A DNA stretch of 64,000 bases from Mesoplasma coleopterae (GTDB lineage Bacteria > Bacillota_I > Bacilli_A > Mycoplasmatales > Mycoplasmataceae): NCBI RefSeq assembly GCF_002804245.1, contig NZ_CP024968.1, positions 496,001 through 560,000 of the forward strand, in the 5' to 3' direction. The first letter of the stretch is position 1. Each line of letters begins with the position of its first letter. The translations under genes and the position numbers were made by a program. The notes beneath the pieces were generated by a model. That model ran no database searches. It was not told the DNA's origin and saw only the letters and a list, made by a program, of their open reading frames with translations. Positions 11,477-60,121 of this stretch are shown here, piece after piece.

Positions 11477-13249
11477 TTATATTTGATTATTAGTTAAAAC
11501 TAATTTAATTAAATGTTTAGATTTATATTTTCTAGAATTAGGTTTAGCATCAACAGTTACTCCCGTGAGAATAATATTTAGACCTTCGCCACTTGGCACT
11601 GTTCCCTGCATTACCCCTAATACCACTTCATCATCAGTTAAGTCTGAGTCAATTTTAAGAATTTCAGATCGAGCTTTTTCTATTGCATCATTAGTTGAAC
11701 CAACAGAAACACTATCAACCTCAATTTTTACTAAATTTGAAAGAACTACATCAACTGATTTTCTCTCAGGAATTATTTCAAAAGTTTTAGAAGCCCTCAA
11801 TTTTGAATTTTGTAGAGCTACTACTTCAAATTTTGTAAATACATCAGTTTGAACACTTTCAATATTCTCTGAACCACGAATCAAAATTATTTCAATATTA
11901 TTATCATTCAGTCTTTCATCAATCCTAATTAAAGTTTGCTTAATTTCAATTAATAATTCTTCTTTATTTTCAACTTTTCTATTTTTACTTTCAATAAGTT
12001 CTAAATTATTTGTTATTGCCGGTATTTCTAAATAAGTTATTTTTAATTCAATTTCACTTTTTGTATAAAAGAATGTTCCCTCTTCAGCAGGCATTAAATA
12101 TATAAAAGAAGGCTTATTAATATCTAAGTAAAAACTAACAACATCTCACTTAATATTTTCATTATTTTCTTTTAAAATTGTTTCTATCTCAGCTGTAAGT
12201 TGCTGTTCATTTTTTCCTATAAATGTATCAACTTCTATAGTTTTATCGTTTAATGCCTCTTCAATAGTTTGTTTATTGAAATTTATTGCAAAGGGTTTCA
12301 AAACATCATCAAAGTTATTATTACTTTGATCAACTGTATTTTCAGGAATAATTACAATTTTATAAGTTGAAATTTCATCAGACTGATTTGAATTTTTAAC
12401 TTGTTCAATTGGTGATGTAAAATGTTCAATATCTTTTATATAAATATCATTTTCAATTCCTAAGTATTCATAAAGTTCTTGAGTGTATATAGATTTAGAT
12501 AATGATTGATTGCCAGGATAGGTACCAACTCATTTTCTTGCATCAAAATGTTGTTCTGCAAATCAAGTAATTGTTTTTTGTTTAACGCTGTTTAAATGAT
12601 TAACGATTTTACTTGTATCATCAATTGATGCGCTTACTTCAAATTGCCCATCAAAGTTGTCAACATCTCATTTGTAATCAGATTTAAGCACAACTTTAAC
12701 ATTATAAGTTTTATCCTCAAACGCGAAAGTACTTGGCCTATCAACTTCTACACTACTAATTCCTTCAACATCATTAAGTGCTGAATTCAATGCAGCAACA
12801 GCTTCTTCATCAGTCATTTGTTTGTTTTGAACTGAAGCATTAAGTTTTGACTGAATATCTTCTTTAATTACTTGATCATAATTACCAACTTTTGCTGTTA
12901 CTTTGAATTGTCCATCAAAGTTGTCAACATCTCATTTGTAATCAGATTTAAGCACAACTTTAACAACATAAGTTTTATTTTCAAAACCAAAAGTATTTTG
13001 TTTATCAACTTGTACACTACTAATTCCTTCAACATCATTAAGTGCTGAGTTCAATGCAGCGATAGCTTCTTCATCAGTCATTTGTTTGTTTTGAACTGAA
13101 GCATTAAGTTTTGACTGAATATCGTTTTTTTTAATTTCAGATTCTATTGATACTTTATTTAAGTGCTTCAGAGATTGATATGAAACAATTCCTGTAACAG
13201 CGCTTGAAGTTAAAGAAACTATAGCTAATAATTGTAATAATTTTTTCAT
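11477..13249 (-). CDS. Secreted repeat protein with duplicated 88-residue module
   Basis: 590 residues, function unknown. The N-terminus MKKLLQLLAIVSLTSSAVTG is a lipoprotein-style signal but with VSY where the lipobox Cys would be, so it is probably secreted or held by the signal anchor. Two nearly identical modules follow, each with QSKLNASVQNKQMTDEEA, NSALNDVEGISSV and VKVVLKSDYKWDVDNFDGQF. The rest has the same helix-then-strands rhythm seen in other surface proteins of the window. It is last in the row that starts with the 1273-residue surface protein. Confidence 0.85.
12643..13132 (-). repeat. Two tandem 264-bp coding repeats
   Basis: About 12643-12868 and 12907-13132 repeat with a 264-bp period (88 codons). 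The shared stretch that encodes LKSDYKWDVDNFDGQF is almost base-identical, so the duplication is recent or kept uniform by recombination. Confidence 0.85.
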
Positions 13250-13289
13250 TTTATTCTCCTTTGACTAGTTAAAAAATAATTTTTCTTTT

Positions 13290-14093
13290 TTAATTTGCAA
13301 TTTCATTTTTTACTTTTTTCATGTAAGTAATTAATTCTCTTTTGGTTAAATCTCTTAAATTAACTTCTTGTAATTTTTTTGATAAGTTTTTTTCGATTGC
13401 AACACTTCTTAATTTATTTGAATATTTTTGTAACTCATATCTTTTTTCACTTATTTTATCTGAACCATCTATTTTAGATCTTTCTGATATTGAAAGTTTT
13501 TTATCTTTTTTAAATTCTACTTGATCTTCATTCAATTCTTTTTCATACTTTTCTTCCATTTTTGAAATAAACATTGTTGCTGATACTTCAGAAATTTTAG
13601 AATCTTTTTTAGAATTAATTTTTCTTGCTTTTCCATTTACATTATTTGACTTTTTAATTTCATCTTGTTGATTAGAAATACTTTTAATTTTTAATATTTT
13701 ATTATCTTTAAAAAATTCATAAATGATAAAACAAAGAATAAATGCAATAGCAACTATTAAAACTCAGTTAATTAGTAAGTCTCAAAAAATTGGAAGCAAA
13801 AATATATATCCGCCATTTACACTGTATAATAAATTAAATTCTGAAAAAGACTTTGAACCTATTGGCCCTGTAAAAAAAGAACTTGTTATTTTTCCATTAG
13901 CAAACCAACTATGATCTGTTCTGTTTACTAAATTAACTTGTGATTCAAATATTTCTTTTCATTCGTTAGTTCCATTTATAGCTTGATTTATCATTTTAAA
14001 CATAAATGCTAAAATTAATAAAATAACCATGATTACTAATCAAAAAAAGATATTTTTAAATTTATTCTGTTTTATTTTTATTATTGTTTTCAT
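13290..14093 (-). CDS. Two-TM membrane protein related to the membrane-HU family (no HU domain)
   Basis: 267 residues. Positive N-terminus, TM1 at about 15-35, an outside loop with TGPIGSKS and FLLPIFWDLLINW, TM2 at about 88-112, then a charged cytoplasmic tail. The loop matches the neighbour at 14737-15570 (LGPIGLYS, FLTPVFLDALINW). The last 45 residues (LRSVAIEKN, DLTKRELITYMKKVKNEI) match a middle domain of the HU-tailed protein at 48317-49456. It is therefore a family member that lacks the HU module. Function unknown; it lies 40 bases ahead of the secreted repeat protein. Confidence 0.82.
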
Positions 14094-14236: not shown

Positions 14237-14281
14237 AAAAAAAAAAAAAAAAGCAAATTTTTAAGTGAATTTGCTTTTAAA
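14237..14281 (-). terminator. Terminator with 16-T tract
   Basis: Minus-strand stem AAAAGCAAATT / AATTTGCTTTT followed by an unusually long T run (the A16 at 14237-14252 on plus), just after the broken gene at 14284-14594. Confidence 0.85.
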
Positions 14282-14283
14282 AA

Positions 14284-14594
14284 TTAATTTTTCAATTTTC
14301 ACACTCCATATTTGCTTGATAAAGTCGTCTTTAATATTAGTATTTCTCTTTCTTTTAAATCAAGAGATCTAAATGAAGGTTTTGTTTTTTTTGCGTTAGC
14401 TTTGCGGTTTGACTTTCTAAGAACGATTAAACGTAAATATCAAAATCATAAATCTTTTTTCTAATTGCTGAATATGAAACTTATATTTTTTGATAACTAT
14501 AAAAAAATCATTCATTTTCAAAATGCTCTTTCATTATATTTTCTTTTTCTTGAGTTTAAAAGATATCTGATTTATTTTTCATAATATTTGACAT
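14284..14594 (-). pseudogene. Small frameshifted gene remnant
   Basis: An AAGGAG site and ATG at 14594 open MSNIMKNKSDIF, then TAA codons and a frame change break it. Another frame continues KKDLWFWYLRLIVLRKSNRK to KYGVWKLKN and a TAA at 14284. The whole would be about 100 residues, basic and aromatic-rich. I do not recognise the family. It lies inside the surface-protein row between the HU-tailed gene and the two-TM gene. Confidence 0.5.
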
Positions 14595-14736
14595 GAAAAA
14601 ATTCTCCTTGTATACATTTTAAATGATAATTTGTTTTTTATCATTTCGTATATTTAGAGAATTATATTGACTTCATTTTATTAAGAAAGTCTTTTTTATT
14701 TAGTGCTCACTTTTTTTTGGTAACAGTCTAATAGAC

Positions 14737-15570
14737 TTATTTTTGTTCTTCTTCAATTGTTATTGTTTCAATTGTTTTTTTATTATATTTAATTCCTGTT
14801 CATTTTGTATCTGACATAATCAATTTTAAATTACGTGAAGGTTTAAATTTAATTATAGTTGACGCAGGTACTTCTACGCTTTCTCCATTTGATGGATTAA
14901 TTGCTTGTTTTACCGGTTTCTCCATCTTAACTAATTTACCAAAGTTTTCAATTAAAACTTCTTCTCCGTTTATTAAATGATTTTCAATATTTTGAACTAA
15001 ATTATTAACAATTTCATTAATTGTTTTCTTTTTATAGTCAGGATACATCTCTGCAAGTCTATCAATTAAATATTTTTTTGATACTTTATCATAACTAGTT
15101 TTTTTAACTAATTTATCTTCTCTAGTAACTTTTTCTTTAATAATTAATTGTGAATTTTTATTTTCTTGAACTTCTACTTTTTCATGAGAATAATTTGGCG
15201 CACTCTCAATTATTTTATTTTTGAAAATTAAATTTAAAATTAATAGAATTATTAAACCTAAAATAGCAAATAAATATATTCAGTTAATCAATGCATCTAA
15301 AAAAACTGGTGTTAAAAAAGTAGAACCACTATATAAATTAGATTGAACCATTGAATATAAACCAATTGGTCCTAGCATGAAACCATTTGTGTTTTTAAAT
15401 CAATTTTTAAAAACATGTGAAGCAAAAACATCTGAAATAGTTTGACTTCATTGTTCATTTCCATAGTAAAAATTATTTAATAGTTTAAAAATAATCAATA
15501 AAGTGGTTGAAAGTATCATAAGCAAGATGATAATTGATAATTTGAATTTATAACTTTTGATTATTTTCAT
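14737..15570 (-). CDS. Membrane-anchored protein with C-terminal HU/IHF DNA-binding domain
   Basis: 277 residues. TM1 at about 9-32 and TM2 at about 88-112 flank an outside loop; the positive-inside rule puts the tail in the cytoplasm. Residues of about 165-256 are an HU-type fold: KKYLIDRLAEMYPDYKKKT (helix 1), LVQNIENHLINGEEVLIENFG (helix 2 and turn), then the DNA-arm signature INPSNGESVEVPAS and IIKFKPSRNLK, which align with NPxTGE...IPA...FKPGKxLK of HU. Known HU proteins are soluble and about 90 residues, so the membrane fusion is unusual. Its ATG is 3 bases after the stop of the 1273-residue surface protein. Confidence 0.88.
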
Positions 15571-15573
15571 AAA

Positions 15574-18500
15574 TTATTCCTCATCTTTCTTTTTATTTTT
15601 AACAAAGACTGCTGCTATTGCTATGGCCATAATATTAACTGCCGCTAAAACTCATAATAATATTTTAGTTTTCTTATGTGCTGGTATATTATTTTCTGAC
15701 TGTGCATTTTCATTATTGTTTGAATTAACTTTTTTTGTAAAGTTAAGAGTTGCTTTACCTGTATATATTTTTGAATCTTGTTTTGGTTCAATTTGAACTT
15801 GTGCTTTATCGCCAGTTATTAATACTTTTATATCAACTTCATCTCATTGAATAGATTGATTTTCTTTTTTAATGATTGCAATTAATCCGTTTTCATTGAA
15901 TTCTTCTTTTGCTACATTTTCATCTGAAACTTTAATAATTTCGCCTAAATCTTGAGTTGAATTAACTTTTATTATTAATTTACCAGAGTATAAACTTTTT
16001 GTTTCATTACCTTCTAGAACTAAATTCCCAGTTTGTTCTTCAATTGAAATTTTTAATTCACCTCAATAGATAAATAGATTAGAATACTGAGAGAAAAGTG
16101 CAGCTTTTAATTTGTCAAGATCATTCTTATCTTCTTCATTAATAAAAATACCATTGCTGAAATCATTTTCATAATTGAAAATATCATATTGCAAGTAATA
16201 ACTACCTTGAATTGCTCCTGAATATGCTTCAGAGTTTTGATTAGCAACGATTTCAAAATTGTATCTATCAATTAATTTAATATGCAACTGTGTATAATCT
16301 ATTGATTGATTATTAATTTTTTCTTTTGATGCATCCATTATAACTTCTTTAAGACTTTTAATTAAGATTTCATTTGTATTCCCTTTAATTTTAGAAACAT
16401 CAACTCTTCCAATATCAATTGGAGATTTTACTATTTCTGAAATATTTTTTCTGTCAACTTTTACATTAACCTCTACATATTGTTCATTATTTTCAGTTAT
16501 TGATGATCCTACTACTGAAACGTTTTTAGATACTATTCTAATTTTTCCTTCTTCGCCAGCTGATGGTTTTAGTTCTATATCATTTTTAGTAATATTCTTT
16601 CAACCTTTTTTATCTTGTAAATACTCAATGACATCTTCTTCAGTAGTGCTTTGGTAGAAAACAAATTCTTTTTGTTCATTAGATTCAGTATACTTAAATA
16701 AATCTTGTTCAGCTAAATTATATGTCATTGGAACAGTTATATTTGCTTCTTTTTCTAATCATTCAGAAGTAGGTTTTGCTTTAATAGTAATTATACCAGT
16801 TTGACTAACTGATGATTGGTGAAGAGTAAAATCAAAATCAGAATCATTTACATTACCTAGTCCTGTAATTAAATTTAATCTTCTAATAATTTCTGTTTTA
16901 TCAATTAAATTAGAGGCATCATCTATTTTAAAGTTAGTTAAGTCATATTTTAACTTACTAATTTTAATTGTATTTGAATTACTTATTTTAACTGAAGAGG
17001 GACTTGCTTTAATTGTTATAAAACCATCTTGTCCAACTTTAGCAGGGTTCTTTCTTTCAATAATAATGTCATTTTGTCCAATTGAAATTGTAGCAGTAGA
17101 ATTTTGGCTTTTTATAACTTCATTTACCATATCTATAATTTCTTTATCTGAAGAATTATTTGTTAGTACCTTATCACTAAAATTTAACGTACTTAAATCA
17201 ATTGCTTCTACTGCAGGAATAACAATTTCTTGCCCTCCTGTTAAATGAGTTGCATCTGATTTTGCTTTTATTGTAATAGAACCGTTTGCACCAGGTTGTG
17301 GTAGCTTTACGCTAATTTCTGTTTCAGCAGTAACTTGTTGTTCAGTTAACTGTGTTTCATTATCTATTTTAGAATCATTTACAATTTGATTAATAATTTC
17401 TTTTTTGTAATCTTCTTCTGTTTTATTATTATCAAAACGTTTAAATATTATTTTTGAAATATCATAAATTAAATGAGGAATTTCAATTTTTTGTTCATTC
17501 ATTACAAGTCTTGAACTTACAAGTGCTTTAATTTCTATTTCACCAGAATTATTGTAATTAGCTTTTTTATCAAGATTTATAGTAACATCATTATCTGTTA
17601 TTTTAGTTCCTGTTACCTTTGTTAAAGCTGCTAATATTTCACTTTGTTTAGTGTTATTAGAAGGTTTTATTTCATTCTTAATGGAATTCTCTTCAGCTGC
17701 TAAATCAATTTTTGCATTGTCTGTTGGTCTTAATCTAATTAAAGAAGTAATTACATTATTTGGTTGCTTTTCTTCATCAAAAAATTGAACATATAAGTCA
17801 TAACCTTTATTTGCGTGTGCATCAGGTATTTGAACTTCTCAAAATTGATTTTTTTCATTAGTTTTATTATAAACAACACCATTTTGAATAGGATTTTCTG
17901 AATCTTGCTCAGTTAATAATACTTTAGAAATATATGAATTAGCTGACAAGGTTAAATTAGGTTTTTTCCCTTCATTATATCAAACATAAACTTCACCATT
18001 TGATCCTAAACTTCAATCTAATCCAGATGATCCAACTAAATTTGATGCTCTCAATGTTTCTTGAAACTTATCATTAAATACTCTATTTACTTGGCCTCAT
18101 CCTGTTGTTGGTTTTCCTTTAGCTGTAACAGTTTTATATGTTTCGTCAGCTTGATACATAACTCCATAATCAAACATCCCACTATATCTTGGTGTTGTAT
18201 GATATTCTTGTGTTAAATTTTCATTTTTGTATGTTCCATCAATAGTGTAAGATGAATTTTGATATGAATTTGATTGAACTATTGTTTTTGAATCATACAT
18301 AACATATTTAGTTATGTCATTAACTCATTGAACTCCCCTAATATAACCATCACCTTGACTATCTTCAATAACAGAATCATTAATTCTATCTATGTAAAAT
18401 GTTTTTGGATTTGCATTTTTTATTGTTTCATTATCATGTGCTTGAGCACTTGTATCTGATGAGCCAGATGTTCCTATATACATACCTTGGCTATCAACAA

Positions 18501-19395
18501 ATACATCATATGCTTGTCTTGTATCTGATAGTTGAGTTATTAATTCACTTTTTTTGCTATTGTCTCTATAAACTGAAACCATTCCATTAACTGTAAAATA
18601 TGTATCTTTTGAATTCTCTTCAACTGCCAATATTGGATATAAACCATTATTTGTTCCTGATGCCAGTACTTCGCTTCTTTTTTCATTTTCATAATACTTA
18701 GTAATTATTCAATCCTGATTGTTATCATCTAATGTTGAATAAGTTATTGAATGATCTTCTGGATTATAAACTGCGTCTTTAACTGATCTATTATAAACTT
18801 CAATTGTTTTAATTTCTTCACCTGTAACTGGTTGCTCTTTTGGAGGAGTTGGCACTAAAAGTCCAACAACTCCACCAAGAATTCCTCCAACTCCACCAAG
18901 AACTCCTCCGACTCCACCAAGAATTCCACCTAAGCCTCCAACTAATCCATAATTACTATATGAACTATTTTTTCACTCAAATTTTGATATTCCTGATTTA
19001 TTAAAATAATAACTAGTTGAATCATTTCCGAAAAAGATTGTTTTATCTAAAAAATCAATAGGAGTTGCTTTTCTTGATCCTGGGTTCTTTGTATAAGCAA
19101 CTTCTTGTGTCGGACCAGATAAAGAAGAATTCATTTTTGTTCTGTATAAGTAATTTTTACTATCTTTACCAGTTCCACTTCAAGTTGTATATCCAGATTT
19201 ACCATCAAAATATGATTGTCTAATTTTCGTTCCAAAAGTTAAAGCAGCACGATTCATTGCCTCATATTCTTTAAAATTATCTTGTCGATTTTCAGACATT
19301 TTATCCATTTTAGGTGAAATATCAACAAGATTTAAAACACCAGTCCCTCCTTGAGTTACTGTTAAACCTGTTAAAGCATATATAAAAAATTTCAT
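15574..19395 (-). CDS. Giant surface protein with glycine-zipper and spiralin-like modules, C-terminal membrane anchor
   Basis: 1273 residues. N-terminal signal-like segment (MKFFIYALTGLTVTQGG) without lipobox Cys. At about 148-182 a Gly-Gly-hydrophobic repeat (GGLGGILGGVGGVLGGVGG) forms a glycine zipper. A strand-rich region follows (TYFTVNGMVSVYRD, VDSQGMYIGTSGSSDT). From about residue 560 on come repeated modules of the form 'DKxEIIxxIN...GxITIKAKxS...G...I' that resemble spiralin. It ends with one membrane helix (TKILLWVLAAVNIMAIAIAA) and a KNKKKDEE tail in the cytoplasm. It is first in an operon with the HU-tailed membrane protein, which could contact its tail. Function unknown; adhesion or surface coat is an inference. 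Confidence 0.88.
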
Positions 19396-48089: not shown

Positions 48090-48317
48090 TTAAGGAGTTA
48101 ATAAATCTTGGGGTTCTATTTCAAGACCCTCAATAAGTCTTTGAAAAACCTTAATTGTTATGTTTCTTCTTCCTCTCTCAAAGTCAGAAATATAATTTTT
48201 TGAAATACCAGATCTAAAGCCTAATTCTTCTTGAGTTAAACCCTTACGTGATCTAATCATTTTTAAATTAGTTGCGATAATTAAAATTAAAGCATTTTCT
48301 TCATTATACTTTTTCAT
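48090..48317 (-). CDS. XRE-family helix-turn-helix regulator, copy 2
   Basis: 75 residues: MIRSRKGLTQEELGFRSGIS, NYISDFERGRRNITI, LEIEPQDLL. Its ATG shares one base with the TAA of the HU-tailed membrane gene (TAATG), so translation is coupled. The last gene of the array 48090-60121. Differs from copy 1 at about ten residues, all outside the recognition helix. Confidence 0.94.
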   Translation of the reverse strand: MKKYNEENALILIIATNLKMIRSRKGLTQEELGFRSGISKNYISDFERGRRNITIKVFQRLIEGLEIEPQDLLTP

Positions 48318-49456
48318 TATTTTAGACTCTCCTTTAAACCTTTTAATGATTTAAATTTAATGGTCTTACGTGAAGGAACCATTTTTAATTCACCAGTTTT
48401 TATGTCTTTCATTGTTGTTTCATTAACCAAGATTGTTGAAAACTTAGCAAAATTATTAATTTTAACTTCTGAACCTTCTTCAATTAAATTACTTTCCATT
48501 AATTCAAATAATCTATCAACAATTATTTTAATTTTAACTTTTGTCAATTTACTATCATTGTTTATGAAAATTGAATCAATTAAATCTTTTTTAGTAACTT
48601 TATTTTTTCTTATTAAGGGCTTTTTTTGATTTATTTTACCTGCCTCAACCATATCAATATTTTCTGATTGTTTTTTTTCACTAATTTGAGTTGTACTATC
48701 TTTTTCCGTAATTTCAATTTCACTATTTTCTGAATAATCTTCTGAATTAAGAGTTTGATATTCTTTTTTTCTTAATTCATCACCTATTTTTTTCATAAAT
48801 AAAATTAATTCTTTTTTAGTCATTTCCTCTAAAACTACTTCATCAACATCTATATTTTTTAAAATAGCGTATTTCTTAATTTTATAAGCATTCTTAACAA
48901 GCTCACTTAAATTTTCTTTGATTAAAACTGATCCATCAGTTTTTGCTCTTTGTTGTAGCAAAGTCATATCGCTATCACTTTCATTATTAAATTCTTCAAA
49001 AAATGTTTTGTCTTCTACATAATGAGGGTATAAATCAACATCAGAATTTTCAACTTCTAAAACCATTTCTGCTTCTTCTTTTTGTGCTTTAACTGAGTGA
49101 TGAATTTTTTTAGTGCCTATTGTTTCAACATTTTTATTTTTTGCATTTTTTGTTTTAGATTTAATAATTAGAATAATTCAAGTAAGTACTAAAATAGGTA
49201 AAACGATTAGCAAAATAATATTAGATACATAATCAATTATATTTGGCAAACTTAAGTCTGTTGGGGGGATTATACCAATAGTTTTAAATGCTTCTAAAAT
49301 ATCTCTATTATTGACTATTGCATTTATTATTTTCATTGAAAAGAAAATAACCATTGTTATCAAAATAGCAAAAGTAAAACTTAATTTAATTACGTAACTT
49401 TTTGATTTTTTTAAAAAAATATTTTTTTGCTTTTTATTTTTTTCTTGTTTCTCCAT
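48317..49456 (-). CDS. Membrane-anchored protein with C-terminal HU-like domain
   Basis: 379 residues. Basic N-terminus, TM1 at about 23-47 (FTFAILITMVIFFSMKIINAI), short outside loop, TM2 at about 75-100, then a long cytoplasmic tail. A middle domain at about 183-228 (AYKIKKYAILKNIDVDEVV, MTKKELILFMKKIGDEL) recurs at the end of the 13290-14093 protein. Residues of about 287-379 are HU-like: VTKKDLIDSIFINND, IIVDRLFELMESNLIEEG, VKINNFAKF, ETTMKDIKTGELKMVPS, IKFKSLKGLKESL. The arm keeps the (D/N)xxTGE...VPxRK...FK layout but lacks the Pro of NPxTG. Coupled to the XRE gene. Confidence 0.85.
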
Positions 49457-49474
49457 TAGTATCCTTTCTTAATA

Positions 49475-49507
49475 TAAAACCCTTCTTTTTAATTAAAGAA
49501 GGGTTCA
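49475..49507 (-). terminator. Internal hairpin before the HU-tailed gene
   Basis: Stem AACCCTTCTTT / AAAGAAGGGTT with a 5-base loop, then TTTTATATT on minus, in the 78-base gap between 49535 and 49456. It may separate the array into two transcripts or attenuate the distal genes. Confidence 0.75.
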
Positions 49508-49534
49508 AAGTTATTTTTGATAAACCATTTCTTA

Positions 49535-49771
49535 TTATAAATTTATTCGATTTATAATATCTTCTAAATCATTAATCAATTTATTTAATTGAGAGTTAAT
49601 CATTTCAGCGTCTGATATAGATACTCTAAACTCACCTAATTTAACTAAATTTTTATTAGAACTAATTTCACTAATTAAATTTTTATTTAATTGTTTTTTA
49701 AATTTGATTAGATCTTCTAAATTAGTTTCTATATCTTGGCCGCTAAAAAATTTTTTAATTTGTTCTGTCAT
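49535..49771 (-). CDS. Small soluble helical protein
   Basis: 78 residues (MTEQIKKFFSGQDIETN ... NDLEDIINRINL), helical, no signal and no membrane segment. Family not recognised. 20 bases downstream of a lipoprotein gene within the array. Could be a small cytoplasmic partner. Confidence 0.75.
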   Translation of the reverse strand: MTEQIKKFFSGQDIETNLEDLIKFKKQLNKNLISEISSNKNLVKLGEFRVSISDAEMINSQLNKLINDLEDIINRINL

Positions 49772-49790
49772 AATCTTTTATCTTTCTATT

Positions 49791-51380
49791 TTAATCAACT
49801 ATAGGAATTTCTTGAAGCATAACATTTAATGTTCTATTTGCAGCTTTATAAGTATCTTCTTTATCTTTAGTTAAAAATACAACATAATAGCTAATATTTT
49901 GAGTATTTTCAATTTTTTCCCTAGTCAATGCGTTACTTGAAGCAACAAAATCATTCAATGTTTTTGTTTCTCCTAAAACGCCATTAATACTATCATTTAA
50001 GTTTTCTTGAGTTTTGTCAAAGAATAAAATTTCATCAACTTTAAATAAACTTTCACTTGCATTTGAACCAAAGTTAAATGCAGTTGTATTTGTAAAATGT
50101 TGACCATTAACAAATTTATTTATTTTTTGATCCTTATCATCACCTGTATAAATATTTAAACTTTCTACAAATTGTTTTTGATGAGTTTTATTATCATCTT
50201 GATTTCATTCTTGAGTAATTTGTTGATTTATTAAGTATTCTTTTTGAATCTTATTTATGTTAGTAGTTGAATTGAATTGTATGAATTGTGGTTCAATTAT
50301 TTTTTTATCTTTACTGGTTAAGACATGTCACTTTAAAGGGTCTGACTGTATTTTTAATATTTCAATATCTGTTTTTATTTTATTTTGTTCCTTTTGAATT
50401 ACTTCTTCTGAAAATTCATAACCAGCACTTGCTTTTAAGTTAACACTTACTTGATTTGTTCAAAACTTTGAATCAATATTTGAGTTGTTTTCAATTATAT
50501 CTAAATTGTTAACACTATCAATTGCAATTTGTTCATTTTCTAAAATTTCTTTTTGATTAATTAAAAGCTTATTTTTAAAATCATTATAATCGCTAAATTC
50601 TTGATTTTTAATTCAATTATTGATTTTTTCTGTAGACTGAGTTATAACATTGTCTTCTATAATAACTGAATCTACAATTGTTCCTTCACATGTAAATTTT
50701 TTATCCTCGTCAGTAACATCATCATCAAATTCGTAGTACTCAGAATCATTAGTTTTAATGCCAACTGTTCCACTTACTTTAAATTTTGTAAATTTTGGGA
50801 TTGATGGATCAGTTGGTTGAGTTGATGATAGAATATCAACTGTTGCATCTTTAAATACTACGCCTTCAGCAGGAGTTCCTGGAATGTTTGCATTTGGCAC
50901 AAATGTGCTTTTAACAACAGATTCACTTTTAAAGTGAACTGTATCTAAAAAGTTTTGTAACCCGATTATAGTTACTGCTAATTCAGCTTTGGTTATTTTT
51001 TTCTTAGGTGCTGGCTTATTTCCACCAAAATTATAAATTAAAGTTATTGAACCTGTATATTTATAGTTATTTTTTGAAGTTCCATTACCAATAAATTCAA
51101 TACTTTGTTGTTTGTTGGTGATTGTCCCTTCTTCTATTTTTTCGCTAACTTTTACACTAATTCCGCCAGCTACATCAACCTTTTGATTAACAAGTTCTGT
51201 TTCCAATGCATCATTAGTTCAGGGTTCTTGATCGTTTTGTTTACTATGTAATATTGCAGTCAAAAATCTTTCAATTGAATCAATATTTTGTTTTTCTGTT
51301 TTAGTAGAACACGATACAACAATTGTGGATGCTGAACTTGTAACTACTAAACTTGATAGCGCTAATAATAATTTTTTCAT
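49791..51380 (-). CDS. Lipoprotein of the ABC/HU array
   Basis: 529 residues. Signal MKKLLLALSSLVVTSSAST with lipobox VVSC. Strand-rich modules follow (SVKVSEKIEEGTITNKQQS, FTKFKVSGTVGIKTNDS), then a helical half with FTNTTAFNFGSNASESLFKV, and ends LNVMLQEIPIVD. No enzymatic motif. It has no copy in the collapsed duplicate. 30 bases after the 53464 gene's end. Confidence 0.87.
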
Positions 51381-51409
51381 TTTCAGCTTCTCCTCTTAGT
51401 TTTTATTTG

Positions 51410-53464
51410 TTAAATTCTTTCAATAAATGTATATGTACCTCATGCAACAATATCAAATCTTTTACCTTTTCCAAAAGAAACATCGAATAAGTCTGTTGAA
51501 ATTCCAAAATTTAAACATGAATTATTACTTGTAGACATTGTTAAACCTTTCATCAACACTGTACCGTTATTTCCTGTGTAAGATGTATCTGCAATTGATG
51601 CTCTTCTTACATTTCTAAAGTTGTTTGTTTGAGAAGTTTTAGGTAAATCTGAGTAAGTAAAGTTAAAGTAAGTTATACCATTTGCTTTAGCAATCAAGTT
51701 TTGTTCTTTAATTTGTTGAACTTCAGGTGTTCCATCAACACTTGTATTTAAACTTAAAGCATCTGCAAAATTAGTTGGATTAATTATTTGTCCATTCATT
51801 GCTCCAGTTTCTTTTCAATAATCTCAAATATTGAAATCTGTGCCATCTTGTTTTTTAACACCTGTTTCACCTGACATTTTAAATTTATTTTTTTTCTGTT
51901 GTAATGTAGCATTTGGTGATGTTCAAATATCACTTTCAGAAATTCCATAGAAATTATGGAATGTATTTAACATTTGTTCAATTCCTCTGTAGTATGCACT
52001 AAATATTTTTGATGTTTCAGCTGAAGTTGTTTCAGAAACTGATGTTGCCTTATTATCAATTGCAATAGAATATGTGAAACCAACATCACTTAATCTTTGT
52101 GTATACCCATTTTGTAAAGAAATAGTTAAACCCTTGTTTGTAATTGTTTCACTTGAAATTGACATCGCTAATAAGTCAGAAGTTCTTTCATTTTCATTAA
52201 TGTTTGAATTTTCAGTTCTTCTTTCATACTCACTTGTTAATTTTTTATTGTAATTTTCTAAAACTTCTTTTCATTGACTTTCAAGTGAGTTGTATAAAAC
52301 TTCATCACCATTTACTCTATTGCCTTCTAGTTGCAATGCGTCAGTTGTTTTAACTTTACCAAAGAATGTATTTCATTCAGATCATGAAACTCCTTCATGT
52401 TCTGTACCATCATCAAATTCAACACTTATTTTCCCTGTGTTGTTAAAGTGATTTGTTAGTTCTTGTCTTATAATGTCATTTTCATTATAGTACCCAACTT
52501 GAATTGCGTTGACAACAGGTGAGTTAGGATTTGTAAAGTATTTATCTTTAACTATTTTTGTTAATGATTTAGCAAATTTTTCATTGTATTTAGTAATTGC
52601 TGATTTATATGCATCTGTATTAGCAGTTAATAAATCTTGTGTTGTTAAACTTGGTTCTAACGCTCTTAATGTTTCAAAGTCAACATAAACATTTGCATTT
52701 GCTTCTTTCAACATATCGCCAGCTAATTCATTACTAATTTTGTTAATTGAAGCAATGATTTCACTATTATCTGAAACAGTAATAACAATTGTCCCTTTTA
52801 CAGCTTTTGTAACTGTAGCTTGCTCTGCATCTTTATATCTATAAGTTGAAGAGAAATTTAAATTAATACTTGAAATAAATCCTTCTCCAGTGTTACCTGT
52901 AGCACCATAAGTCATTTCAGCATTTTCATAATCAAATTTTAGATCATCAATTCATTTTGAACCAAAACTTCCAATTAAAACACTATAAGTTGAAGTACTA
53001 ATTGCATTTCTTAAATCTGCCATTGCTTTAGATGGACTTAATAGTGATTCAACATTTGATGTTAAATCTTTTTGTTGTTTATCTGTTAAAACATCATAAA
53101 ATTTAACTGCTTGCTCATCTGCAAATGCCGAAATTTCAGGGGTAGTTTCACCACCACCTGCACCAGTTGATGCTTGATCATAAATTGATTTTAAATTATC
53201 TTGTTGGAAAAAAATTAATCCATTTTTTGAAGCCTCTGTATCTAACAATGTTGATCTTGTTGTCATTGGTGTTGAAACAATTGTTGAGAATTTTGATTGA
53301 ACTTCAGATTCAAATTGTCTGATTAATTGTCTGATTGCTTCTTTTTCTTTTTCTTTTTCTTTGTCATCTCCACCATTATCATCTCCATTTGAACATGAAA
53401 TAACAGCCATTGATGATGAACCAACTACAGCAAATGATGACAATATTAATAATAATTTTTTCAT
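51410..53464 (-). CDS. Lipoprotein of the ABC/HU array, paralogue of 45499-47490
   Basis: 684 residues. Signal with lipobox VISCS; Asp/Lys/Glu linker; body with [38 protein letters not shown] and [19 protein letters not shown]; ends [12 protein letters not shown]. Nearly identical to the 45499-47490 protein in long stretches, including the same signal and C-terminal third; indels and the C-terminal region differ. A shared fold with the 55365-57236 lipoprotein is likely (similar FFxQ(S/D)NL phrase and WFxxL segments). Confidence 0.9.
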
Positions 53465-53514
53465 TTTTGTGTTTTTTCCTTTTCTTTTTAATTCTGTTTT
53501 TAAAAAATAATTTT

Positions 53515-55329
53515 TTAGAAATCAAATTTTCTAAATTTATATAAAGCAATTGAAAAACTCAATATACTTATTCCAAATAAAATAACCAAATAATATCAAG
53601 GTTTAACATAATTTGATGTTGTATTTCCTTCAATCATATTAGTAGAAGTAAGTTTTATTTCGTATTCAGGATATCCTAAAAATAAATTCTTTTGATCTTC
53701 TAAATAAATCTTTGAGAAAGAATTAGGAGAAAATCAAATATCATTATTGTAGAATCCTAAGTTTTTGGTATAAACCATTCACAACCCACTATACAAGTTG
53801 AAATAGGATAGGCCACGCATCATGCTTCTGCCTTTGATGTAACTATTTCAGTCTCCTGAAGTTTTAGATACCGCATTTGAAGACATAATTATGTAATTAC
53901 TTGAATATTTAATAAAATATTCTTCAATTACTCTAGCTGAGTACATTAAATTAAAGTTTAATTGTTTGTTGACTAGATCATTTGAATTTGTAAATCTAAA
54001 TCCGTCATTTCGGATTCCTGCAACTGAATATTCATAGAATGAAACAACATCTTGTTTTTTCAATGCATAAGTTACTTTATTTTCTTCTATTTCTTCCTCA
54101 GTTGGATTAAGTTTCTCTAAATAACTTTTTTCTATTCCTGAGTCTAAAAATAAGAAATCATAAAATAAATCATATTTTTCAAATTGAAGAGCATTGTTAA
54201 AGTATTTATTAATTTCATTTGTGAAACTTCTAAATTCTACTAGAATATTTTTTGTATTTTGATCTACAGTTTTATTAATTAGTTCATCTAATTCTTCGTT
54301 TGTTATAAAAGCATCTTTTAAAGTTATTTGAATATTAAATTTATCATTAATTTTTCAAGTATCAGGAACAGATGTATCTCTAAGGGGTTTTGAGAATAAA
54401 TCTAAATTCGTTTCTGTTATAACAATTGGATTAGGATTTATAAGTCCTAAATCTTTTCACATTTGCATTCTATAATTTATATTTGTTGTGTTATGAAATT
54501 GATCTGTAACCATTTCTTTTGAGAGGAAATAATTGTAAACATATTTAGATAAATGGGGATATTTAATATTTCCTTGATTCACATGATCATATAAGCTGTA
54601 AGCATCATATATATCATTTAATTGAAAAATGTCGCCGTTTGTAAATTGTACATAATAACTTTTTTCATTTGCTTTTACAAAAGACATGGGGATATTTGCT
54701 ATAAATGATAATGCTAGTAACAATGTACAAATAATTGTAGTAGTTTGTAACGTAAATATAAAAATTAAAAATGTAATAAAGTTAACTAAAAAGAATGTAG
54801 CAAGTAAAGAATATATAACATACATTGACGTCATTCTAAGTATGAATACATCATAATGAAACAATGTAAATGTTGCGTAAAATATATTTATAACAACAAA
54901 GCTCATTAAAATATTTACAGCACAAATTAAAATAATTAATAAATATTGAGCTATAAAGAACTTTGTTCTGCTTACTTGATTAGTTAAAACAATATATGTT
55001 GTTTTATCTTCAAAATTCTTACTAAAGAAAAATTGAATCATTCTTAAAATAAATACAAACATTAAACAACAAACAAAAAATAATATATAAAAGTTAAATA
55101 TTACAACTTGTGAACTTCCTGATTTTACAAAAGCTAATACAATTCCAATTAAAATTGAAATAACAATAGTTGCTAAGTTTAAAATATAAAATAATTTTTC
55201 TTTCAGCAAACTTTTGAAACTAAATTTCATTAATTTAATGAAAGGGATTCTCCTATATTTGATAAGTTTTTCTTTTATAAAATTTTGTAAAGGATTTGTC
55301 TTCTTTTTTTCATAATTTTCTTCTACCAT
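53515..55329 (-). CDS. ABC-type permease of the ABC/HU array
   Basis: 604 residues. The ATG at 55329 follows AAGGAGGTG. Basic N-terminus, six helices in the first 230 residues ([56 protein letters not shown]), then a large outside domain of about 330 residues and one last helix ([20 protein letters not shown]). Six helices plus a big outer domain fit an ABC-2 permease variant. The likely ATPase partner is the 57251-60121 protein two genes upstream. A relic of its 3' end lies at 47518-47940. Confidence 0.85.
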
Positions 55330-55364
55330 AGTACCTTCACCTCCTTTCAATGTAGCTCACTAAA

Positions 55365-57236
55365 TTAATTTGAATCAATTAGTGTTCTTTCAAACCAATA
55401 AAATTTTTCTGATTTAATTACAAAACTTAAATTTAAAAACGATAAATTAAAATCGACTGAAAGGTTACTTGAATCTTCTTTAAATTTTTTGAAAATAAGT
55501 TTATTATTAGTCATTTCAATTATTGGAATATTTTGCAATTCTTCACTATTGTTAAATTGAAAATGAAATGATGAAGTATTTGTTTTATTTAAAAAACTTT
55601 GACGTTCTGATTCTGCTGAATAAGTTAAACTCTTATTGTTAAGCAAACTTAGCTGAGCATTAATATCAGAAATACTCTTGTCATTAGTTTTTACTGCTCT
55701 AGAGTACAAAATATTTGCGTTTTTTAAATTAATTAATTCTTGATTGTCTGATAAAGACGTTCATGTTGTTTTGCTTGTTCCATAAGTTTCTTGAAAAACT
55801 TGCAGAGCACTCATTGTGTTTTGATAAATTGCTTTAAAAATTGGATCTTGACCTGCTGAAATTATTTTTGTTTCAACTATTTCGTTTTCATTATTTAAAT
55901 AACTATCATTAAGATTATTAGCTGATATTCCTACGTAATATGAAATCGGATTAATTGGATGATAATAATTAAATTCATCAAAATATAAACAAAAGTTGTT
56001 TAAAGTTATTTCTCCGTAGTTAACTATGGAATCAGAATTAATACCAAGTTCTTTATTAAATTTAGTTTGAAAATCACTTACTCATGTTTTGTATTCTTTA
56101 TTTAAGTGAGCATAAATATCTTGATTCCCTTTTACAAATTTATTTTCTAAAACAATTTGGTCATCTGTTATTAGTTCACTGAAAACTGTTTTAAATAAGT
56201 TTATATTATTTGTATTTGTTGTCGAAACTGTATCATCAAGTATTAATTGCTTAGAACCATATTTATTTTCACGTGGATTAAAATTATTAATTCTGTTAAT
56301 AGATTTAAAATTTTTGAATCTATTTTCGTCTTTAAAAGTAAAATTATAGCTTTGAGTTGGATTAGATGAATTAGTATTATGTTTAGAAATATAATTTAAT
56401 AAACTTTTTTCAAATTTATCAAATTTAAAAAGATTTTCAAAATCACTATTCGATAAATTAAACAATCTTGCATAATCATTTATTCTAAGGTCATACGCAT
56501 CAAATCACGTTCACTCAAATTTGTCTTTAATAAGATTTTCTCTTAGCTCACTAGTTGAAAATTTTAAATTTTCAATTATGTCATCTTGATTACAAATTGT
56601 AATGACTATATCTTCTTGATATTTATTTTTAATTACATTGCTATTGATGTCAGTATATTGGTAAGTAAAAACTAAATCTAAATTAACATTTGCTATATAA
56701 TTTTTATTTTCGTTATCAAAACTTAGATACCCAAAATCTATATTGCTAAAATCATAAGATAATCCTTCAAATCATTTTTGATTTTCATTTTTAAATTCTA
56801 GAATACTTGAGTAAAAATTTAATTCAGGTTTCATTGAATTTAAAATTGTTTCTTCTATTTTGCTGTTTTTTGTGATTTTGTTTAAATCATTAGTCAGAGC
56901 ATCTTTTTCTCTTTGAGATAAAAGATCATAATTTGAGGTTACATTTTGATTTTGTTTACGCAAATTTATTTCTTGTAAATTAGACTGAGTAAAAAAGTCA
57001 AAATTTTCATGTTGTTGCATTGCTTGATCAATATAAATTAGTTCATTTTGCTTTTCAGCTAACGCATTATGAAATTTTGTTTCAACTTCTTTCTCGAAAG
57101 ATTCACCAAGAACATAGTAGTTATATATTGGTTTATATTCTTGTTTATCATCTTTTGGCTTTTGCCCACAAGCAGTAGTTACTAAACCAAAACCTATAAC
57201 AAATGTAGAAGCAATTGGTAATATTTTTTTTAACAT
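55365..57236 (-). CDS. Lipoprotein between the ABC ATPase and permease genes
   Basis: 623 residues. Signal MLKKILPIASTFVIGFGL, lipobox VTTACG. Helical, polar body with FFTQSNLQEINLRKQ and EFVKGNQDIYAHLNK-like stretches. Located 14 bases after the ATPase-coiled-coil gene and 35 bases before the permease, so it is probably a working subunit of the transporter rather than a free lipoprotein. Paralogous in outline to 51410-53464. Confidence 0.87.
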
Positions 57237-57250
57237 TTTATTGGGGGGAT

Positions 57251-60121
57251 TTATTTGTTAAATTTTTGCATCATCAATACTTCGTTTAATTTGTTTTTTT
57301 CTTCTTGGATTTCACGTCTAATTCTTTCAAGTTCTAAAACATTTTCGCGTTGTTTCATTTCACTATCAAATTTAGCTAATTTTTGATTTAATTCTTTTTC
57401 AAAAATCATTTCTTTTCTTAATTGTTCAAAATATTCTTTTTCTTTATTTAAGTCAGATTTAATTTTTTCTAACTCTTGATCTTTTAATAAAGTCAGATTT
57501 TGTTGATGTCACATTGATTGTTGCATATTATAATCAATGTTATTATGTCAACCATGTTGAGCACCTACATATTTTTTAGTATTTTGTTGTTCATTCATCT
57601 CGTATTTTAGTTTCTCTAATTCCTCTTTTAATTTTGAGATTTCAAGATTGTATTCTTTAATATTTGATGAACCTTCATTAATCAAGTTAACTTTTGTATC
57701 TATATTGCTTTGAAGTGTGTTGATTTCCCTATATTGAGACTCTAGTTGTTTTTGTCTTGATTTAGTTGAAATATCTTCAGCTTCAATTTTGGCTAATACT
57801 GCACTTTGTGTTTCTTTTAATCTTCTCAATTCTTCTTCAAGTTCGGTTTTTGATTGATTAATTTCACTTGATTCAATTTGAATTTGTGACATGAATTCTT
57901 TTAATTCAGAAATACTATTTTTAATTGATTCTTTTTCTGCAGAAGCTGTCTTATTAAATTCATCGTGATATTCTTTGAATTCTTTAATTTTTTCTAAGTA
58001 TTCAGCTTTTGATTCTTGAATAATTTGTGTTTCAGCACTAATGCTTTCAACATATGATTTTAAATCTATAAGTTTATTTGTAAACTCAGCTTTGATTGAA
58101 TCAATTTCTTCATATTCTGCAATTGTTGCTACAGCAATATCTTCTTGTAATTTTTTTAATTCATCAAGTTTTTCATTTAACTCAAGTTTTTTCATTTCAA
58201 CTTCTTCATGTTCTAAATCAACTTGTGTTAAGAATTCGTCTCTGTTTTGTTTTAAAGCATTTAAGTCTTTATCCAATGCATCTCTTGAGTTATTAATTTC
58301 ATCATTTTCAATTTGAATTTGAGTTAAATAACTCTTGAAATCTTTAATTTCGTCTTGAATAATTTCTCTTTGAGCAGCAACCAAGTCTTTAAATTGATTT
58401 TCAAATTCTTTAAACTCATTCATTTTTGATTCAATTTCAGAAGTTAATGAATTTTCAGATTCAATCTTAACTTTTTCAATATAAGATTTTAAATCTTCAA
58501 GCTTATTTGAGAACTCATCTTTCACTAAATCAATTTGTTGGTATTCATTTGCTGAAGTTAAACTAATTTCTTCTTGCAATGCTTTCAATTCATCAATTTT
58601 AATTTGTAAATCTGTTTTCTTAAATTCTAAATCTTGAGTTTCAGCTTCTGTTTGTTCTAAAAGCACTTTTAAACTAGTTGCTTGATCTTCAAATGTTGTT
58701 TTTACTTGATGAATAATTTCTGATTCTAGTTTAATTTTTGCAAAGTAATCTTTTAAATCATCAATGTTTAAATCAATTTCAGTTTTTTGTTCAGTTACAA
58801 TTTTGTTTATTTCTGATTTTAAATTTTTAAGTTCTTGCACTTTGTCAAAAAAATCATTTTTAATTGTATTTATTTCTGAAGCTGTTAAAACATTTTCGCC
58901 AACATAGCTTGGATCATTTAAGACTAATGTTTCATGAGTTTTAGCTGATGTCTCAGATAAATCATCGCCTATTAATACAAGGTCATTTGATAAACCAACT
59001 TTTATTTCATCTTCGCCTAAATTTAAAATGTTTTTATATTTATCTTCTATTTTATTTAAGAATTCCAATGCTTTACCTAAATCAACAGATTTATTTGAGC
59101 TATCAATTACGAATTCCTTTAATGGTTCGTATTTTGGTTTATGTGGTTTTTCTTTATCTTCTAAAGCTTTTGAAATAGCATCCATATTTATAGCTTGTGC
59201 TACAACATCTTTTGGTTGCAAATGATTTTTTTCTAAAATAGCTAAAGCGTCGTTAAAAGTTTGATGCTCGTTTAAACCGATAACTAATGAGTTTGTACTT
59301 AAATCAAATTTAAATGTCAAAATATTATGTTGATTTAAGAGTTTTTCAACTTCTGCTAACACAACATCTTTTTCAAATGAAACATTTATTTTTTTGTATA
59401 AGTTTAATTCAGATTTTGATCCAGAAAATAATAATTTACCTTTTTCTAAAATTACAAAATTTTCAATTATGTTATAAACTTCATCGATATTATGAACTGT
59501 TAGTATAATTGTGCTGTTAAATTCTTCTTTGAATTCTTTTAGTATTTTGTAAGATTGCCCTCTTCATTTAGAATCTAAGTTTGCACCTGGCTCATCTAAA
59601 ATAAGAATTTCTGGTTCTTTAATAAAACATAAAATTAAATTCATACGGTTTTTCATTCCTCATGAAAATGCATTTAAAGGTTTATCTTTAGATGTTCATA
59701 AGTCGAATTTTTTTAATCAGTATTCAATTCTTGATCTAACTAATGATTTGTCTAAACCCATAACATTACACATATTGTATAAAAAGTCATAAGCTGTAAT
59801 TGAATATAATGAAAAATCCATTTGAGAATAAAACCCAACATTAGAGTTATTTTCAATTGAACTACTTTTTTTACGTTCTTTACCATTAATATAGATATTT
59901 CCATCATAATTTAGAGTAGCTCCAAGTAATGAATTTAAAAATACACTTTTACCTGATCCACTACTTCCAAGTAATGCTGTAACTTTTCCTTTTTCTATAT
60001 TAAAAGAAAATGGACCTATATTTATATCTTTAAATTTTTTATGAAAATGGTCTACCATCACAGCATTATTGTTAGAGTTTTCTAAAATAATGCGTTTTGA
60101 TTTTAAAATATTTTTTTCCAT
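57251..60121 (-). CDS. ABC ATPase fused to a long repeat-built coiled coil
   Basis: 956 residues. Residues 1 to about 240 are an ABC ATPase: Walker A GSSGSGKS (52-59), signature-loop variant FSWGMKNR (near 155), Walker B ILILDEPGANLD (near 172), His switch LTVHN. A linker domain follows to about 410. From there to the end it is a continuous coiled coil with repeating blocks such as EIDSIKAEFTNKLIDLKSYV and EFKSYL-type elements about 90-100 residues long, ending KLNEVLMMQKFNK. ABC ATPases normally lack such tails. The permease and lipoproteins follow directly. I infer the tail forms a rod or a cytoskeletal link. Confidence 0.92.

Follow-up and report, generated by a model that had tools for sequence, protein, structure and literature searches.

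HU-domain proteins carried on a two-helix membrane anchor in Mesoplasma coleopterae and related genera

We analysed a 64,000-nucleotide stretch of the Mesoplasma coleopterae genome, henceforth referred to as the window, which encodes two proteins that combine an HU domain with a predicted membrane anchor. The first of these, type B, is encoded at 14737-15570 on the minus strand and comprises 277 aa under genetic code 4 (TGA = Trp); a forward-strand reading was ruled out by stops, and both genes lie on the minus strand. From the N- to the C-terminus, type B consists of two membrane helices, a linker and an HU domain. The two-TM anchor (residues 1-122, 15205-15570, minus strand; alignment A2) has hydrophobic segments at residues ~11-31 and ~98-116, as estimated by hydropathy with the limits of the first helix set by eye. 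The anchor, with its conserved motifs GPIG...S and FLxPxFxDxLINW, recurs in types A and D and in a sibling protein encoded at 13290-14093. The anchor is followed by the linker (residues 123-163, 15082-15204, minus strand), the HU domain (residues 164-250, 14821-15081, minus strand), in which the arm-tip NP is kept (INPSNGE), and a C-terminal extension starting with MSDTKWTG (14740-14820, minus strand) that is common to Mesoplasma type A proteins.

We assessed the HU assignment using sequence profiles and structure prediction. An earlier reading of this DNA, made from the sequence only, had proposed an HU fold behind a two-TM anchor at this locus and placed the fold at residues 165-256. A Pfam scan matched PF00216 over residues 164-250 (E 3.9e-22, 78.7 bits against a cut-off of 22.4), in agreement with that range, and together with the two hydrophobic helices this bears out the proposed architecture. 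The best sequence relatives in the PDB are Spiroplasma melliferum HU structures (5l8z, E 7e-14; 5ogu, E 9e-14). Although the AlphaFold2 model, built from a three-row alignment, is of low confidence (mean pLDDT 53, ~58-77 over residues 161-250), it retrieved HU/IHF structures in Foldseek with a probability of 1.00 (best hit 5l8z, E 2.3e-6), consistent with the fold proposed earlier.

The start of type B lies 3 nt past the stop of a gene for a 1273-aa surface protein (15574-19395, minus strand), which has a C-terminal TM, a KNKKKDEE tail and Spiralin domain matches. A GAGGA ribosome-binding-like site precedes the type B start and is located inside the 3' end of the surface protein gene. The order of surface protein followed by type B is kept in genomes G002, G006 (both loci) and G055; the region upstream of type B in G003 reads N. 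Type B and its surface protein gene are both in fragments in G005, and the type B gene is broken in G054. Several members of the genus have lost type B or retain it only in decayed form, and it is therefore dispensable. IS-like fragments and duplicated lipoproteins occur near type B, and the interval 14240-14620, between type B and the sibling gene, contains a possible transposase-like remnant and a T-rich terminator-like hairpin.

A second membrane HU, type C, is encoded at 48317-49456 on the minus strand (379 aa, genetic code 4). It had been described as a second, more divergent copy. In the Pfam scan PF00216 matched residues 287-378 (48323-48598, minus strand; E 3e-16, 59.9 bits against a cut-off of 22.4); the arm-tip NP is lost (MKDIKTGE). 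The two-TM anchor of type C (49151-49456, minus strand) is a distant match to the type A anchors of genus g11 (hhalign prob 95.7, E 8.7e-9), and its putative homology with the anchors of types A and B is indirect, running via these g11 anchors only. Residues 166-232 (48761-48961, minus strand) form a DGS tail domain, discussed below. In most copies the stop of type C overlaps the start of a gene for a 75-aa HTH_3 (XRE-like) regulator (48090-48317, minus strand) as TAATG, and two of the seven type C copies have no HTH partner. A 78-aa ORF upstream (49535-49771, minus strand) is kept beside type C in most copies. The region 48090-60121 encodes, all on the minus strand, several lipoproteins in a row, a membrane protein of 604 aa, an ABC ATPase of 956 aa that has a long coiled coil, the 78-aa ORF, type C and the HTH regulator. 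The suggested link of the two proteins to surface-protein operons thus stands, as type B directly follows the 1273-aa surface protein gene and type C lies within a lipoprotein operon.

The topology of these proteins was estimated from hydropathy and the positive-inside rule. The N-terminus is short and basic, and the loop between the helices spans ~45-78 aa (31 aa in type C of the window) and is neutral or acidic in most proteins. The simplest reading, which we favour, is that both termini are cytoplasmic and the loop external, so that the HU tail is likely to face the cytoplasm, as had been expected.

Four HU domains are encoded in the complete genome (G000; 800,407 bp, one contig): besides the ordinary HU of 90 aa and types B and C of the window, there is a 365-aa membrane HU that we call type A. 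Type A adjoins mnmG and ftsH at ~15 kb from the end of the contig, and its linker is ~30% Lys with KKPAxKK repeats. Each of the seven genus genomes has the mnmG-linked type A, and one of them, of 793,224 bp, has a type B copy as well. Intact copies of type B occur in G000, G002, G003 and, twice, in G006, and G055 has a relative; type C was detected in G000, G001, G002, G004 and G006. Given that a member beside mnmG occurs in every genome of the genus, it is the mnmG-linked type A, outside the window, that forms the core of the family, and the copies in surface operons are accessory.

Beyond the genus, membrane HUs were identified in genera g3 (1/1 genome, beside mnmG) and g11 (4/4, including M. 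seiffertii and M. photuris), and therefore occur in 12 out of 12 genomes of the genus and two related genera, with lengths of 277-472 aa. None were seen in the rest of the family, and the matches listed for the order outside the family included no long-frame HU match. A scan of GTDB with the anchor alignment returned no confirmed relatives, for which tryptophan encoded mostly by TGA is a possible cause. Weak anchor matches in Spiroplasma were rejected, being frames full of stops that look like repeats. Spiroplasma sp. TIUS-1 and a relative encode, beside ruvA/ruvB-like genes, neighbouring pairs of soluble HUs that reach 228-246 aa in total through long N-terminal extensions. In an HU tree, the membrane forms are placed apart from the soluble HUs (support 96/97); the tree is compatible with a single origin of the membrane forms or with several. 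The grouping of type C with small Spiroplasma HUs in this tree was discounted as it is probably due to long-branch attraction.

To compare selection among the parts of these proteins we used pairwise median dN/dS by domain. The values for anchor, linker and HU are 0.18, 0.46 and 0.21 in type A, and 0.34, 1.18 and 0.20 in type B, where the last value includes the C-terminal extension. In type C they are 0.51 for the anchor, 0.18 for the DGS domain, 0.30 for the HU domain, and 0.61 and 1.22 for the linkers. The HU domains are under purifying selection (0.20-0.30) and the linkers are relaxed (0.5-1.2). The maintenance of the HU parts while the linkers drift speaks for a functional domain held by a tether. 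The arm-tip NP is present in every aligned HU domain, including those of types A, B and D, except type C, and a conserved FK...LK stretch follows the arm in types A, B and D. Most of the HU domains are basic (pI 9.4-10); the tails of the g11 forms are acidic overall (pI 4.8-5.3).

The distribution of the membrane HUs was compared with that of ParB. All 18 genomes of g1, g2, g3, g11 and g12 lack ParB, whereas the other 42 genomes of the family all have it, and the 12 genomes with membrane HUs all fall inside the set without ParB. Since g2 and g12 lack both, cells can do without ParB even where there is no membrane HU. We note that this correlation represents one clade and one evolutionary event; it is a consistent background and provides no independent test. 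The sequence-only reading had pictured a cell without MreB. However, the genome encodes a divergent MreB-like protein of 324 aa (PF06723, E 3.7e-39), and MreB is thus reduced, not absent; ParB is what is missing. The MreB-like gene is located near the contig start (G000:C1:2712-3668), between dnaN-like and rnmV/ksgA-like genes.

We propose, with moderate confidence, that this family of membrane-anchored HU proteins keeps chromosomal DNA attached to the membrane on its cytoplasmic side. The two N-terminal helices would anchor the protein so that both its ends lie inside the cell, and a flexible linker, which is rich in lysine in the core member, would let the C-terminal HU domain grip and bend DNA. 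The HU domain would act as a dimer, perhaps with the soluble HU. The mnmG-linked type A, near the presumed origin, may provide a general, housekeeping attachment of the nucleoid to the membrane in a clade without ParB. Type B would be an accessory paralogue, probably on the same transcript as the large surface protein, and may link that protein with the nucleoid or position DNA underneath it. The tethering interpretation is weakened by the loss of the intercalating proline in type C, by the dispensability of type B and by the overall acidic tails of the g11 forms.

Several other explanations were weighed against DNA tethering. The proteins could be membrane-bound local regulators in the manner of ToxR/CadC, with an HU domain that senses the state of the membrane or of a surface complex and bends the DNA of nearby promoters of surface-protein or lipoprotein genes. 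The coupling of type B to a surface protein gene and the overlap of type C with the HTH_3 gene inside a lipoprotein operon would fit such a role, but HU domains as a rule show little sequence preference in binding, the core type A is found beside mnmG and not in a surface-protein operon, and the HTH partner is not constant among the type C copies. We consider local regulation unlikely. It is likewise doubtful that the HU fold serves protein-protein contact, as a dimerisation element or membrane scaffold in which DNA binding has been lost or become secondary. The loss of the arm NP in type C points in this direction, the anchor and the HU domain also occur apart, as in the sibling, and an M. 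gallisepticum HU homologue does not show non-specific DNA binding (PMC8637272). However, the arm NP, the basic surface and FK...LK are all retained in types A, B and D, and dN/dS is near 0.2 in the HU domains of types A and B.

We assign a still smaller chance to the idea that the ligand of the tail is RNA, or RNA associated with ribosomes, and that the protein tethers translation to the membrane. This idea draws on the DGS tail, which is also joined to the anchor, is carried by the ribosomal proteins bS6, bL20, bS16 and uS5, and occurs together with HU in type C and in the type A of G009; but the DGS tail is missing from type B and from the Mesoplasma type A, and HU is foremost a DNA-binding fold. 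Finally, the patchy occurrence of type B, its decay in relatives and the IS-like fragments and duplicated lipoproteins nearby could indicate functionless gene-fusion debris in a recombining region. The purifying selection, the conserved synteny of type A and the recurrence in three genera make this explanation very improbable.

The sibling of type B (13290-14093, minus strand) carries the two-TM anchor without an HU domain and ends in a C-terminal DGS tail. The tail domain (~residues 196-266, 13296-13508, minus strand; alignment A4) was modelled by AlphaFold2 with a pLDDT of 94 and a pTM of 0.80. This 70-aa helical tail (DGS...TKREL) is near-identical to the C-terminal tail of bS6 of the same genus. 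DGS/MTKKEL tails are encoded, among other loci, at 13290-14093 and at G000:C1:117668-117877, and the carriers, some of whose identities were read off the sequence, include PTS EIIC proteins and, in G059, FtsH, in addition to the four ribosomal proteins and the two-TM anchors. The soluble HU of G056 also has a DGS tail, as do the type A of G009 and type C. Among 298 genomes of the order, the domain is confined to five genera of the family. It matched no Pfam family, and neither Foldseek (best E 3.0) nor VIA-align (best Z 4.9) identified clear relatives, which is not proof of a new fold. Weak histone-doublet matches (E 0.008) were set aside because they are due to a lysine-rich stretch. The pair of lipoprotein and anchor-DGS genes is duplicated, at 11477-14093 of the window and, ~145 kb away, at G000:C1:650700-656500, and the anchor-DGS proteins of the two pairs are almost identical. 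That ribosomes, a nucleoid protein and membrane proteins all carry the DGS tail suggests that they share a partner or that the tail self-associates, which we regard as a lead. More tentatively, one two-TM anchor family joined either to HU (nucleoid) or to the DGS tail might constitute a clade-specific modular tethering system linking chromosome, ribosomes and membrane in cells without ParB; we see this as possible but far from established.

We compared the membrane HUs to known systems. They resemble the HU/IHF family (PF00216; 5l8z, 5ogu) in having a full-length HU domain with a conserved core, basic charge and, in types A, B and D, the arm NP. Whereas known HUs are soluble proteins of ~90 aa, HU is here the C-terminal domain of a two-TM protein of 277-472 aa; types B and C, with two hydrophobic helices and 277 and 379 aa, are HU-domain proteins and not ordinary HUs. 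Mycobacterial HupB and proteins with H1-like lysine-rich tails are soluble, and their basic stretch follows HU; the type A linker is a similar Lys/Ala/Pro-rich stretch, but is located between anchor and HU. ToxR/CadC-type proteins are membrane-anchored transcription factors with a winged helix. The likeness to them is a membrane-bound DNA-binding protein, here predicted, that is coupled to envelope genes; in the membrane HUs, however, HU replaces the winged helix, for which there was no Pfam match above cut-off, and no single target gene is evident. HU-CCDC81/SPOR membrane proteins, which also have an HU-superfamily domain inside a transmembrane protein, were reportedly predicted in Bacteroidetes by Burroughs, Kaur, Zhang and Aravind in 2017, with a proposed chromosome-envelope link. 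In view of that prediction, calling the present architecture a new use of the HU fold was too strong. The proteins described here nevertheless belong to another HU clade and to a wall-less lineage, have a conserved external loop between their two helices, and show no SPOR/peptidoglycan link. The Pfam scan detected no SPOR domain in the membrane HUs at E up to 1, and the only CCDC81-type HU match (PF14908, E 0.002) was below cut-off, in one type D protein for which PF00216 scored far better.

We found no description of a membrane HU in Mollicutes in the open-licence literature, and we know of no proteins that attach mollicute DNA to the membrane. Such attachment was itself reported half a century ago, according to the citation in PMC8637272 (Quinlan and Maniloff 1972). 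The anchor, the clade and the common DGS tail are new as far as we checked. The membrane HUs make nucleoid-membrane attachment without ParB directly testable, and they bear on the question of which unknown genes a minimal cell needs.
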